In this document: in pieces, positions 13,414 to 16,229 of the stretch
How positions within the stretch are numbered: position 1 is the stretch's first letter
Layout of the letters: each line of letters starts with the position of its first letter
Assembly (NCBI GenBank): GCA_002733495.1
Contig: NVVV01000063.1
Span: 1 to 64,000 of the forward strand
Direction of reading: 5' to 3'
DNA length: 64,000 nt
Source: Robiginitomaculum sp.
GTDB lineage: Bacteria; Pseudomonadota; Alphaproteobacteria; Caulobacterales; Maricaulaceae
The notes under the pieces: model-generated
What the model saw: the letters and a program-made list of their open reading frames with translations, nothing else
What the model was told of the DNA's origin: nothing
The model's database searches: none
Position numbers and translations under genes: made by a program

Positions 13414-13610
13414 ATATTTTGAAGCGGGCATTTTCAAAGAAATGCCTACACACCACCTTTTACGAAAATATGGCATGTAGCGGTATATGTGTAGATTGTG
13501 GAAAAGATTTAGGTTTCATCGGAAATCTTGATCGTTCGAAATGCGTTGCAGACAATGATCCGAATATATGGCAACCTGCGAGAAATGACCAAAAGATTGG
13601 AAAATTTTAG
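13410..13610 (+). CDS. Small zinc-ribbon-like protein
   Basis: A 66-residue basic protein with CSGICVDCGKDLGF (about residues 22-35) and a further Cys near residue 45, plus an upstream Cys/His (KKCLHTTFY). The cysteines suggest a small metal-binding fold, similar to short zinc-finger-like phage proteins. The start is taken at the ATGA overlap with the preceding gene; longer frames read through that gene. It ends one base before the tmRNA promoter. Confidence 0.65.
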   Translation: MNILKRAFSKKCLHTTFYENMACSGICVDCGKDLGFIGNLDRSKCVADNDPNIWQPARNDQKIGKF

Positions 13611-13641
13611 TTGACAACCAAGACTTAGTATGTTATAAATA
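13611..13641 (+). promoter_or_regulatory. Combined sigma70 and T4-late promoter of the tmRNA gene
   Basis: TTGACA (13611-13616), a 17-base spacer and TATAAA (13634-13639) form a near-consensus host promoter. The same -10 continues as TATAAATA (13634-13641), the late octamer. The site could therefore serve both unmodified polymerase and the late gp55/gp33 polymerase. Predicted transcript start is near 13646. Confidence 0.75.
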
Positions 13642-13645
13642 ATAC

Positions 13646-13895
13646 ATAGTTGTTTGATACAGCTTTAAATTCGCAACACTCGGGGGCAGTACCCGACGTC
13701 TCCACCAAACTACTACATCGGGGGACGACCTAGGATCGACTGTGAATGGATAAGTAAAGTGTAGACTATCGGTTGAGTTCCGTAATTGATTCAAACTTGC
13801 TAAACGCAAATCTAAACTACGCGCCAGTCGAATTGGCAATTGCAGCATAATTTTGCTGCGGGGCATGAGTTCCACCTTGCAACAGAACGGACTCA
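13646..13895 (+). ncRNA. ssrA: Circularly permuted two-piece tmRNA (ssrA), alphaproteobacterial type
   Basis: The acceptor piece comes first and ends CGTCTCC-A-CCA (13697-13707). After a 13-base intervening segment (13708-13720) the coding piece starts at GGGGACG (13721). These arms form a 7-bp acceptor stem with G3-U70, the alanine identity pair. The T-arm is TCGGG (13680-13684), a 7-base loop, and CCCGA (13692-13696). A long-helix pairing joins ATTCGC (13669-13674) to GTGAAT (13742-13747). The D-arm-like GGATCGACTG follows the 5' arm. The tag frame starts at GCA 13806 and stops at TAA 13848-13850, giving AANLNYAPVELAIAA including the charged alanine. The stop lies in the loop of a GCAGCA/TGCTGC hairpin. 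Outer ends are approximate. Confidence 0.92.
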
Positions 13896-13913
13896 CTTCA
13901 CAAAGGACATATT

Positions 13914-14261
13914 ATGTATACCCCAGATTATTGGTTAATCTTGAAAATTCTAGGCAAAGACCCCCACTACAAAGTGTTCGGTTCTTGGTCAGGTAGTTAT
14001 TTGTGTGGTCAAAGCTGGCGCATGAATAGTGGTATAGAATCGGTCACCGAGCATCTAGGATGGTATGATATTATTGGATCATCTGGTTCAGTATATCGCT
14101 GCAATGATACTCGATATGGTGCAAACTCGTACGGATCAGACGTGGTAACAGATTTCGTGAATCGTGCAAACGGAAAGATTGAAATTCTTGAAACTATGCC
14201 AGATATGCTTAATATGAACTGGATATTATCAATCACAAAGGAGAACACCAATGAAAGTTAG
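13914..14261 (+). CDS. Conserved small phage protein (YTPDYW type)
   Basis: A 115-residue protein starting MYTPDYWLILKI, with HYKVFGSWSGSYLCGQSWRMNSGI (about residues 38-61) and SSGSVYRCNDTRYG near residue 76. This pattern recurs in small uncharacterised phage proteins. An aaggac ribosome site precedes ATG 13914, about 20 bases after the end of the tmRNA coding piece, so it may be co-transcribed with the tmRNA. The last 11 bases overlap the next gene. Function unknown. Confidence 0.75.
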   Translation: MYTPDYWLILKILGKDPHYKVFGSWSGSYLCGQSWRMNSGIESVTEHLGWYDIIGSSGSVYRCNDTRYGANSYGSDVVTDFVNRANGKIEILETMPDMLNMNWILSITKENTNES

Positions 14262-14451
14262 CACACATCTAACAGAAGACGGTCGCGGCCGCGCAGAAGT
14301 TCACACTACCGAAGGTGTAGGCCATGAGATCAGATATTTCGATAACAACGGTAAGCGATATCATTCCGAAACCTTCGGTGATAAACAACTTCATGAGTTA
14401 CAGATTATTGCTGATGAATGGTCCGACAGCATTCACACGTTGCACGGATAA
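14251..14451 (+). CDS. Small hypothetical protein
   Basis: A 66-residue protein with AEVHTTEGVGHEIRYFDNNG (about residues 15-34) followed by a short helix (KQLHELQIIADEWSDSI). I recall similar short proteins in marine T4-like phages, with an EVHxTEG segment, but no function. It overlaps the preceding gene by 11 bases with an aaggag ribosome site, and the gp33-like gene begins 3 bases after its stop. Confidence 0.65.
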   Translation: MKVSTHLTEDGRGRAEVHTTEGVGHEIRYFDNNGKRYHSETFGDKQLHELQIIADEWSDSIHTLHG

Positions 14452-14453
14452 AA

Positions 14454-14675
14454 ATGAAAAAAACCAAAGAAGAAGCTATCATAGATGAAATTTCTCACTA
14501 TGTTAATTCCGATGTGACTTATATAGACGCATTAGTTATTTATGCCGAAAAGCACGATATAGAAATAGAGGTGCTAGGCGAAATCGTGAAACGTTCGGTA
14601 GTTCTCAAATCTAAAGTTGAAGAGGATGCCGAGTTTCTAAACCTCATAGAAGAGACACAAAAATTACCGATATAA
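14454..14675 (+). CDS. 33: gp33-like late-transcription co-activator
   Basis: A 73-residue helical protein. VTYIDALVIYAEKHDIEIEVLGEIVKRSVVLKSKV (about residues 21-55) matches gp33 proteins of T4-like marine phages as I remember them, which bind the RNA polymerase beta flap and link it to the sliding clamp at late promoters. Position directly upstream of gp59 and gp32 supports this. ATG 14454 is chosen; the in-frame start at 14418 lies inside the preceding gene. Its end overlaps the probable ATT start of gp59 by 13 bases. The TATAAATA sites throughout the window are its expected targets. Confidence 0.75.
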   Translation: MKKTKEEAIIDEISHYVNSDVTYIDALVIYAEKHDIEIEVLGEIVKRSVVLKSKVEEDAEFLNLIEETQKLPI

Positions 14676-15268
14676 GCGACGGCGAAAAGGCATACAATGT
14701 TTATACGACTTATCTGGCCTTAAAAGCCCACTTCACTACATCATACGATTATGTGGAGAATAAAGGTAGAACTCGCGCAAACATTAAATCATTTGAAAAA
14801 CGAAAAGACAAATATTTCTTTCTGCTATTGTCACGAAAGAAAAATTGGTTTGAGCATATGCTTGCCAATATGATTGTTAAACCGAGAACATATATCCGTG
14901 ATCTGGTCAACAATGAAGAGTGTAAAATCATCACAATGAAATTCATGAAAACTGTACAATCATTAACGTATATTGTAAAGTCGGAACTTTCGCAATTGGA
15001 TGATAATTTTGATAGTAACTTCACAATAATAGATGGACAGCACCCGCCCATCTTGGGCCTTTACCTTTCAGGGAAGATTGGTCCAGAGACATTGATAATT
15101 ATTGATGATCTAATTGGGTGCTTTGATTACTGGAACAAAAACATACAGGACACCATAATTTGGCCTGATGTCTATAGAATGTGTCAAAAATACAAGCCAT
15201 TCTTGTCTGAAGTTTATGATAAGGATAAAATGAAAACCGTGATAATGGGCTATTTTCAAGCGTTATAA
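14663..15268 (+). CDS. 59: gp59 replicative helicase loader, probable ATT start
   Basis: This is the T4 gp59 family, which loads the gp41 helicase onto gp32-covered DNA. The body (KGRTRANIKSFEKRKDKYFFLLLSRK) matches. The first in-frame conventional start is GTG 14753, but the frame upstream encodes AYNVYTTYLALKAHFTTSYDY, which is the conserved gp59 N-terminus as I know it. Between the upstream in-frame stop and that segment there is no ATG, GTG or TTG; ATT 14663 (then T-D-I-S-D-G) is the best start, giving 201 residues (T4: 217). A weak agaagag precedes it. The alternatives are GTG 14753 with a truncated protein, an ATA start at 14672, or a sequence error. Confidence 0.85.
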   Translation: MTDISDGEKAYNVYTTYLALKAHFTTSYDYVENKGRTRANIKSFEKRKDKYFFLLLSRKKNWFEHMLANMIVKPRTYIRDLVNNEECKIITMKFMKTVQSLTYIVKSELSQLDDNFDSNFTIIDGQHPPILGLYLSGKIGPETLIIIDDLIGCFDYWNKNIQDTIIWPDVYRMCQKYKPFLSEVYDKDKMKTVIMGYFQAL

Positions 15269-15341: not shown

Positions 15342-16229
15342 ATGTCGTTTGCAGCACTGAAAAAGAATCGCACTAAATCATTCGAAGCTCTTAATTCTGA
15401 GTTACAAAAAATGGATCGCAAGAGTGGTAATCAGCACGATGATCGCTACTGGAAGCTTGATGTAGACAAAGCAGGTAATGGTTATGCTATTATTCGCTTT
15501 CTAGACACACCAGATGGAGAAGATTTACCATTTGTACGTGTCATTGATCATGGATTTAAAGGTCCAGGTGGCTGGTACATCGAAAACTCTCGAAAAACTT
15601 TAGGTAATGATGAAGCTGATCCTGTCGCGGAAATTAACTCCGAGTTGTGGAACACTGGAACTGAAGAGAATAAGAACAAAGCTCGCGCTCAAAAGCGCCG
15701 CACTGGGTACCACGCAAACATCTACATTGTAAAAGATACTGCCAATCCAGCTAACGAAGGACAAGTTAAATTGTTCAAGTTTGGACCAGAGATTTACAAA
15801 AAAGTTAATGGCGCAATGAATCCTGAATATGAGGACGAAACTGCAATGAATCCATTTGACTTCTATGATGGAGCAAACTTCAAACTTAAAGCTCGTAACA
15901 AAGAAGGTGGTTTTCGTACTTACGAAGCTTCTGGATTTGAGGCAGTAAGTCAAGTTCTACCTACAGATGCCGAAATGAAAGTGGTTTATGAGTCTTTGCA
16001 TTCATTGTCCGCTATCGTGGCACCTGATCAATTCAAGCCTTATGCTGAATTGAAAACAAAACTTTATCGTGTTTTGGGTCTAACTGGTGGACAAAGTTCG
16101 ACTGCCGCCAGTGCCGATATGCCTACAGCTAAAGCTGATTCTGCACCGATGACACAAACGCCAGCAGCTTCAGCAACAGATGAAGATGGAGATGATCTTG
16201 CGTTCTTCAAGAGTTTAGCCGACGGTTAA
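15342..16229 (+). CDS. 32: gp32 single-stranded DNA-binding protein
   Basis: A 295-residue protein, T4 gp32 length 301. It has the basic N-terminal cooperativity region (LKKNRTKSFEAL), an OB-fold core with GYAIIRFLDTPDGEDLPFVRVIDHGF, the KRRTGYHANIYIVKDTANPANEGQVKLFKFG segment, a flexible Ala/Thr-rich linker and an acidic C-terminal tail (TDEDGDDLAFFKSLADG) for partner proteins. The His-Cys3 zinc ligands of T4 gp32 are not visible, as I recall for marine relatives. It coats ssDNA in replication, recombination and repair. It is followed by a strong terminator shared with the convergent tape-measure gene. Confidence 0.95.
   Translation: MSFAALKKNRTKSFEALNSELQKMDRKSGNQHDDRYWKLDVDKAGNGYAIIRFLDTPDGEDLPFVRVIDHGFKGPGGWYIENSRKTLGNDEADPVAEINSELWNTGTEENKNKARAQKRRTGYHANIYIVKDTANPANEGQVKLFKFGPEIYKKVNGAMNPEYEDETAMNPFDFYDGANFKLKARNKEGGFRTYEASGFEAVSQVLPTDAEMKVVYESLHSLSAIVAPDQFKPYAELKTKLYRVLGLTGGQSSTAASADMPTAKADSAPMTQTPAASATDEDGDDLAFFKSLADG

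Follow-up and report, generated by a model that had tools for sequence, protein, structure and literature searches.

The 64,000-nucleotide stretch of DNA analyzed here (the window) contains a permuted tmRNA gene of the alpha type, complete in its parts, that belongs to a T4-like phage. This had been proposed in a first-pass annotation of the sequence, and it is supported by Rfam models, by pairing retained in relatives, and by the phage genes of the contig. Our preferred reading, which we regard as probable, is that the gene works: its two-piece RNA would be processed, charged, and used to rescue ribosomes, and it would be transcribed both early and late. We infer, of course, the timing of transcription, the processing, the charging, the rescue, and the benefit to the phage. 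Two-piece tmRNAs of phages have already been published (PMC9004378), so the kind of gene is known. To judge from the available parts of that paper and of PMC11915505, the additions made here are the promoter, a gene order shared by many phages, and the separation of phage from bacterial tmRNAs.

Contig C25 (155,986 bp), one of 82 in its assembly, begins with the window. The first and last 99 bases of C25 are identical; this repeat would fit a closed genome cut open by the assembler. The contig encodes T4-type portal, sheath, baseplate, and terminase proteins (phrog_213, E 6.2e-191; phrog_23, E 3.8e-123; phrog_219, E 1.7e-157), as well as a gp55-like late sigma factor and a gp45-like clamp, and it looks like a complete T4-like phage genome. 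In a search with the portal protein, Stenotrophomonas phage DLP6 ranks first among isolates (51.5% over 93% of the query); the phiM12 group of Sinorhizobium phages shows 54.6% over 87%, and relatives on viral contigs reach 64% among the best 80 of 282 matches. ARAGORN finds 29 tRNAs on C25. A tRNA that it calls near 128.6 kb (L008:4591-4664) has the anticodon CTA and would read UAG. Recoding of UAG, the idea that this tRNA prompted, was rejected: TAG ends 30 of 191 mechanically chosen open reading frames on C25.

An alphaproteobacterial host had been read from the tmRNA itself. Such a host is likely, but by way of the bin, an alphaproteobacterial MAG (82 contigs, completeness 87.89, contamination 5.15), and binning is, of course, no proof. 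Nor is the type of tmRNA by itself, since PMC9004378 reports an alpha-like tmRNA in a phage whose host, OM43, it classes as Gammaproteobacteria, and DLP6 has a beta-type permuted one. Host identity is therefore not readable from tmRNA type alone. The bin has an alpha tmRNA of its own on contig C14 (255.6 bits, tag ANDNIAHETALAA), different from the phage copy, and in a tree it groups with Henriciella- and Robiginitomaculum-type bacteria. A match to SspB lies near it on C14, and a match to SmpB lies on C47.

The gene and its surroundings contain these features:

13611 to 13641, + strand: putative overlapping promoter, by motif; -35 TTGACA at 13611-13616, a 17-nt spacer, and TATAAATA at 13634-13641
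13646 to 13707, + strand: acceptor piece of the tmRNA (P2 3' side, T-arm, acceptor 3' strand, ACCA), from the Rfam alignment and pairing across relatives
13708 to 13720, + strand: spacer of 13 nt between the tmRNA pieces, which processing would be expected to excise
13721 to 13897, + strand: coding piece of the tmRNA (acceptor 5' strand, P2 5' side, PK1, tag frame, 3' hairpin), from Rfam; the 3' end is approximate, 13897 being the end of the alpha_tmRNA match
13770 to 13794, + strand: putative PK1 pseudoknot; CGG/CCG, 13770-13772 with 13780-13782, and UUGAGU/AUUCAA, 13773-13778 with 13789-13794
13806 to 13850, + strand: tag frame and stop, covered by the Rfam alignment; codons 13806-13847 give ANLNYAPVELAIAA, and the stop TAA is 13848-13850
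13842 to 13859, + strand: stop-codon hairpin, GCAGCA/UGCUGC with the tag stop in the loop, read from the sequence
13867 to 13894, + strand: 3' hairpin, read from the sequence, whose loop looks conserved (...GCAACAGAA)
13914 to 14261, + strand: small ORF right after the tmRNA, AAAGGA upstream of its ATG, no Pfam or PHROG match
14251 to 14451, + strand: second small ORF, no Pfam or PHROG match
14418 to 14675, + strand: gp33-like late-transcription coactivator (PF16805, E 4.8e-9; phrog_25387, E 7.6e-13)
14753 to 15268, + strand: gp59-like DNA helicase loader (phrog_269, E 2.3e-28)
15342 to 16229, + strand: gp32-like single-strand DNA-binding protein (PF08804, E 2.3e-39; phrog_224, E 1.1e-101)

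The circularly permuted tmRNA claimed at 13646-13895 is confirmed by the sequence and by Rfam, with each part that had been listed found in its place. The CCA arm lies upstream of the 5' arm, and the 13 bases of 13708-13720 separate the two. The acceptor piece ends in CCA at 13707 (ACCA is 13704-13707), and its partner strand, GGGGACG, is 13721-13727. The 7-bp acceptor stem (13721-13727 with 13697-13703) includes the expected G3.U70, at 13723/13701. The T-arm (13680-13696) has the 5-bp stem, 13680-13684 with 13692-13696, and the 7-nt loop that had been described. The long-helix pairing, P2, is found as two segments read from the sequence: UUCGCA (13670-13675) with UGUGAA (13741-13746), which gives 6 bp including one G.U, and AUAGU (13646-13650) with ACUAU (13765-13769). 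The P2 pair 13676/13740 is a non-standard A.C in the window; it is G-C in 105 of 114 aligned rows.

Once the alanine carried by the tmRNA is counted, the tag reads AANLNYAPVELAIAA, the same frame as first proposed. It does start with L in place of D (ANLN against ANDN), and it does keep the AIAA end, so that ANLNYAPVELAIAA and its TAA would supply a degron-like tail. The hairpin around the tag stop is likewise there, at 13842-13859. PK1 was absent from the original list of parts; it can form in the window, and the same rule is met in 9 of 5000 shuffles of the stretch. The CAACAGAA of the 3' hairpin is shared with the Rfam model consensus and with the bin's tmRNA. The interval originally given holds the gene but is slightly short, since the promoter lies at 13611-13641 and the covariance match runs to 13897.

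Two checks had been suggested for the gene, and they gave different answers. The Rfam alpha-tmRNA model (alpha_tmRNA, RF01849) covers 13593-13897 over the full model, with a significant 96.5 bits against a curated cut-off of 50 (E 4.9e-25), and a second model, tmRNA_permuted (RF04321), covers 13646-13850, again over the full model, with 78.4 bits against a curated cut-off of 47 (E 2.5e-13). ARAGORN, run over the window, called no tmRNA. An Rfam scan of the whole window at curated cut-offs gave nothing besides these two models, and no riboswitch. The DNA of 13500-14300 found no similarity match among 50,697 phage records.

Relatives were sought by form: a pattern scan of IMG/VR for an alpha T-arm and a CCA end gave at least 120 viral stretches. 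ARAGORN made permuted calls in 67 of the 120 viral loci among the matches listed and none in the other 53. Rfam covariance models, run on the 45 of these 120 that ARAGORN missed on clipped pieces, matched 43; the two listed loci with no covariance match have sequence that ends just past the CCA. The published count of two-piece phage tmRNAs that we found (PMC9004378) rests on ARAGORN, and such genes are therefore probably undercounted in print.

The first-pass annotation had also made compensatory changes in relatives a point on which the gene should stand or fall, and here the outcome is favorable. A perfect 7-bp acceptor partner strand and a TCGA-like motif lie downstream in 118 of the 120 viral loci among the matches listed; the two listed loci that lack the partner both run into contig edges. 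In a control, a partner was found in 19 of 1062 trials once both free bases were changed. Acceptor pairing was, of course, itself a selection rule. The T-stem pair 13680/13696, which the pattern left free on both sides, is therefore the cleaner test, and it is paired in all 114 aligned rows among the matches listed, with all four Watson-Crick types represented. These rows take in the window, Pelagibacter phage HTVC008M, and one further locus (L221).

The rest of the fold gives a graded picture in the same alignment. Inner P2 is paired in 95% of cells versus 71% in shuffles, and a slight excess over shuffles is seen for PK1 stem 1 (0.588 versus 0.496) and middle P2 (0.360 versus 0.300). Outer P2 (0.525 versus 0.520 shuffled) and PK1 stem 2 (0.273 versus 0.265) show no signal above shuffles in this alignment, whose variable PK1/P2 part we think MAFFT misaligns. 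A single-sequence PK1 rule built on the window fits 12 of 109 bacterial and none of 113 other phage genes among the matches listed, which makes the rule too narrow beyond the window.

Before counts were made, 2 of 120 viral and 7 of 118 bacterial loci among the matches listed were dropped for want of a 5' strand, as were duplicates. Three of the seven bacterial loci sit at contig edges. The other four are titled Saccharibacteria (L263, L264, L274, L338); they match the alpha T-arm/CCA pattern and are without a 5' partner strand by the rule used. The 13-nt spacer was considered as a special feature and rejected, spacers of at most 13 nt occurring in 5 of 118 phage and 10 of 111 bacterial genes among the matches listed. 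Phage spacers are generally longer, with a median of 79 versus 28 in bacteria (again among the matches listed).

Directly upstream of the tmRNA stands a site that, by its motifs, could serve at early and at late times of infection. The TATAAATA at 13634-13641 is predicted to double as a sigma-70 -10 element and as a T4-type late motif. The late promoter motif of T4 is placed at -13 to -6 (PMC1524935). By this rule, the +1 would fall on 13647, at the beginning of the acceptor piece. Alongside the motif, the phage encodes the gp55-, gp33-, and gp45-like proteins that go with a T4-type late promoter. The combination TTGAC-N18-TATAAATA is a single site in the 64-kb window and appears in none of 100 shuffles. 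Of the 17 TATAAATA sites on the window's + strand, 11 have a loose ribosome-site-plus-ATG match within about 80 nt, a figure that comes without a chance control.

The arrangement recurs. Among the matches listed, TATAAATA lies within about 110 nt before the tmRNA in 65 of the 118 viral loci with enough upstream sequence, where shuffling leads one to expect 2.44, and 40 of these 118 have the combined site, with TTGAC at -35. Bacterial tmRNA loci among the matches listed have neither (0/115 for TATAAATA, 0/115 for the combined site). Of the 40 combined viral sites listed, 38 have a 17-nt spacer, and at the other TATAAATA sites of the same listed loci TTGAC stands at -35 in 4 of 143 cases. Taking one locus per 90% cluster among the matches listed leaves TATAAATA in 45 of 89 and the combined form in 27 of 89.

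In 30 records of the matches listed that were searched whole, the combined site occurs 16 times and the reversed pattern once. By sequence comparison, 11 of those 16 listed sites are the tmRNA sites; of the remaining five, one precedes a tRNA array, two precede gp32-like genes (one assignment agrees with the gene search, the other was made by eye), and two have no clear target. Two more combined sites lie on contig C25 ahead of tRNA-bearing stretches. After a second promoter of the TTGAC...TATAAATA form on C25, near 119.6 kb (L007:15613-16147), some 500 nt separate it from the next called tRNA. That stretch has no Rfam match at curated cut-offs, and the promoter may lie ahead of an RNA that is not yet described.

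Overlapping early and late promoters have been described for RB49 and suggested for S-PM2 (PMC2984593). Within the open-licence papers of PMC, we found no report of one at a tmRNA.

The order of genes in the window is tmRNA, two small ORFs, gp33, gp59, gp32. The first small ORF, 13914-14261, has no relative among viral contigs. Searched on both strands, gp33 is seen in 33 of the 120 viral loci among the matches listed, always downstream and on the same strand, never upstream; gp59 and gp32 follow it in 23 of those 33. Where the listed loci have at least 3 kb downstream, 19 of 57 carry gp33, gp59, or gp32, and 38 carry none of them. With gp33 in 33 of 120 loci and the exact late motif in 65 of 118 among the matches listed, the layout is thus common, not universal.

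Such an order invites the idea that the tmRNA serves as a leader, its excision setting the 5' end and the expression of the gp33-gp59-gp32 messages, with rescue secondary. A ribosome-binding site and an ATG do lie within about 20 nt of the tmRNA 3' end, gp33 does recur downstream, and Melnitz, a Methylophilales phage, is reported to have a riboswitch and the coactivator in one segment (PMC9004378). However, a leader needs no tag frame, no alanine identity, and no conserved pairing, and in 38 of the 57 listed loci with at least 3 kb downstream the tmRNA stands with none of the three genes in view. We regard this reading as unlikely.

The tags speak to a different alternative. The extractor accepted only tags ending in AA, so that the share of genes with this ending is not a finding; among the matches listed, it obtained a tag from 113 of 118 phage and 109 of 111 bacterial genes. 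The five listed phage genes without a tag comprise three cut by a contig end and two with a longer tag ending in AASA. Within the required AA, the end is LAA, VAA, or IAA in 81 of 88 distinct phage tags of the matches listed. VRQDFALAA, VYHLRLAA, and a few other short tags may be wrong frames.

Phage tags in the listed matches are longer than bacterial ones (median 14 versus 12 residues, p 3.7e-10). Viral contigs hold tags of 19-31 residues (L115, L119, L092, L094, L104, L106, L126, L069, L110, L109, L087), which far exceed the bacterial tags in the sample of listed matches. The start of the tag is, in E. coli work, what the adaptor SspB reads. Among the matches listed, 64 of 88 distinct phage tags and 50 of 57 bacterial tags start with ANDN, a weak difference (p 0.038), and the third position of the distinct phage tags that start with AN is D in 65, N in 3, E in 2, A in 2, and T, S, and K in 1 each. 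The ANLN start is in no other tag extracted from the matches listed; the window's L stands alone.

Among the matches listed, 26 of 113 phage genes have fewer than 70 nt of coding piece ahead of the tag, which leaves little room for PK1; none of 109 bacterial genes is of this kind. In those 26 listed viral loci, PK1 seems to be reduced or lost. The window's own tag starts 85 nt into its coding piece, the usual distance.

A phage RNA might, of course, enter the host's rescue system only as a decoy, titrating SmpB or filling stalled ribosomes and so weakening host trans-translation. There is precedent: a form of the tmRNA from mycobacteriophage DS6A with only the tRNA-like domain is reported to inhibit the endogenous tmRNA in E. 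coli (PMC11915505). Searches for the SmpB and SspB families also found no match on the phage contig. Against this, the window gene is complete, with a tag frame ending in AIAA, a stop hairpin, PK1, and the long helix, and the L/V/I-AA end is kept in 81 of the 88 distinct phage tags of the matches listed, the final AA being imposed by the extractor. Inhibition of this sort is unlikely.

Where the gene came from is a separate question. In a fast tree of 223 core sequences of the matches listed (114 phage, 109 bacterial), the two labels need 3 changes, versus 74.6 when shuffled. With pairs of at least 90% identity excluded, the nearest neighbor is a phage for 111 of 114 listed phage rows and a bacterium for 106 of 109 listed bacterial rows; with purine/pyrimidine coding, the nearest neighbor has the like label for 110 of 114 and 108 of 109, respectively, of the listed rows. 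These figures are to be read with a short core, flagged long branches, at least 118 bacterial rows, and the fact that near relatives cluster labels by themselves. The phage and bacterial alpha-type tmRNAs would on this comparison form almost separate groups, and the comparison favors an old phage lineage inside the alpha type. Phage tmRNAs follow the three bacterial lineages according to a figure legend in PMC9004378; the split drawn here is a finer look within one lineage and does not contradict that legend. A viral contig (L090) has its tmRNA among the bacterial ones, with a tag, ANDNRAPVALAA, that also occurs in a bacterial locus. This contig may be of bacterial origin, or its tmRNA may have been captured recently.

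Phages do carry unselected passengers, and the bacterium of the bin has a tmRNA of the alpha type, so that the window gene might be a recent, unselected copy of the host's. But its core is 75% identical to its nearest sequence among the matches listed, a tmRNA on a viral contig, and 53% to the bin's tmRNA. The 3 label changes on the tree of listed matches (74.6 if shuffled) speak against the same idea, and the gene has kept its paired positions and has a phage-type promoter attached. A recent copy is very improbable. The retained pairing, the recurring place, and the recurring promoter suggest a maintained phage function, not a stray copy. Misassembly of a bacterial tmRNA onto the phage contig, for which a metagenome-type bin of 82 contigs (completeness 87.89, contamination 5.15) gives some opening, is scarcely credible given phage genes on either side, the 99-bp repeat at the contig ends, the location of the bin's tmRNA on a different contig, and the tmRNA-gp33-gp59-gp32 order in other phages, including the isolate HTVC008M.

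The probable reading, a working two-piece tmRNA, can be laid out as a sequence of steps. Host sigma-70 polymerase would transcribe the gene from the start of infection through the overlapping promoter, and the phage late-transcription proteins gp55, gp33, and gp45 would keep transcription going late. The precursor would start near 13646-13647. Host tRNA-processing enzymes would cut after the CCA and before the 5' G of the coding piece, leaving two pieces held together by the acceptor stem and P2. The G3.U70 pair would direct charging with alanine. The phage tmRNA, with host SmpB, would then enter stalled ribosomes, free them, and append AANLNYAPVELAIAA. The proposed benefit follows from the timing: transcription both early and late would give a steady supply of rescue during mRNA destruction and at the peak of phage translation. 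For E. coli infected by T4, PMC9697503 describes the host SsrA as remaining stable, with speculation by its authors that it keeps ribosomes available.

A wider proposal can be offered only tentatively, as one that may well prove wrong. Here, T4-like phages would keep an old permuted-tmRNA lineage of their own, apart from those of their hosts, tied to gp33-gp59-gp32 and made throughout infection from an early/late promoter. Tags conserved in their tails and variable in the starts that host adaptors would read would let the phage steer the adaptor or protease that meets the rescued proteins.

Among known systems, the scale is set by PMC9004378, which reports tmRNAs in 402 of 18,146 phages; among their 133 distinct structures, ARAGORN classes 53 as two-piece. 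In PMC11915505, the list of phage tmRNAs runs to 79 unique sequences. Our search found a permuted tmRNA in 5 of 42 relatives and named isolates, including DLP6 and HTVC008M. None was found in phiM12, phiN3, or S-CREM1, and most of the other relatives searched are short fragments. The DLP6 gene (KU682439.2, 102838-103059; L218:1501-1722) scores 136.8 bits, and 103.7 bits as beta type, with the tag ANDDSFAPMAIAA; the DLP6 record has no feature at 102838-103059, and the text of the DLP6 paper has neither tmRNA nor ssrA. In the phage DSS3_MAL1 (L225:893-1848), a GOLLD RNA (160.5 bits) adjoins a permuted tmRNA and spans a tRNA.

The bin's C14 tmRNA (alpha_tmRNA, RF01849) resembles the window's in being permuted with the CCA arm first, and in its G3.U70, T-arm, PK1, A-x-A-A-type tag end, and conserved GCAACAGAA stretch. 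The window gene differs in its lower score (96.5 versus 255.6 bits), its shorter length, its ANLN instead of ANDN, and its phage-type promoter. HTVC008M has an unannotated permuted tmRNA (NC_020484.1, 145161-145370) in the same order as the window, with the tmRNA, two small ORFs, and gp33 near the end of the record and gp59 and gp32 at its start. Its tag is ANFNEYALAA, and, unlike the window, it has no TATAAATA in the roughly 140 nt before its tmRNA.

A close published case is the two-piece tmRNA reported in Melnitz; Melnitz and related marine T4-like phages likewise have a permuted alpha-like tmRNA upstream of the late-transcription coactivator gene (PMC9004378). There, however, a glutamine riboswitch is present and the authors propose early expression (PMC9004378), whereas the window has no Rfam riboswitch and has an exact late motif. 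The early and late expression predicted here thus differs from the early-only proposal for Melnitz. In RB49, and by suggestion in S-PM2, a single gene has both an early and a late element, an arrangement proposed to substitute for middle-mode transcription (PMC2984593). Their sites concern homologues of T4 middle genes, while the window's site stands at a tmRNA.
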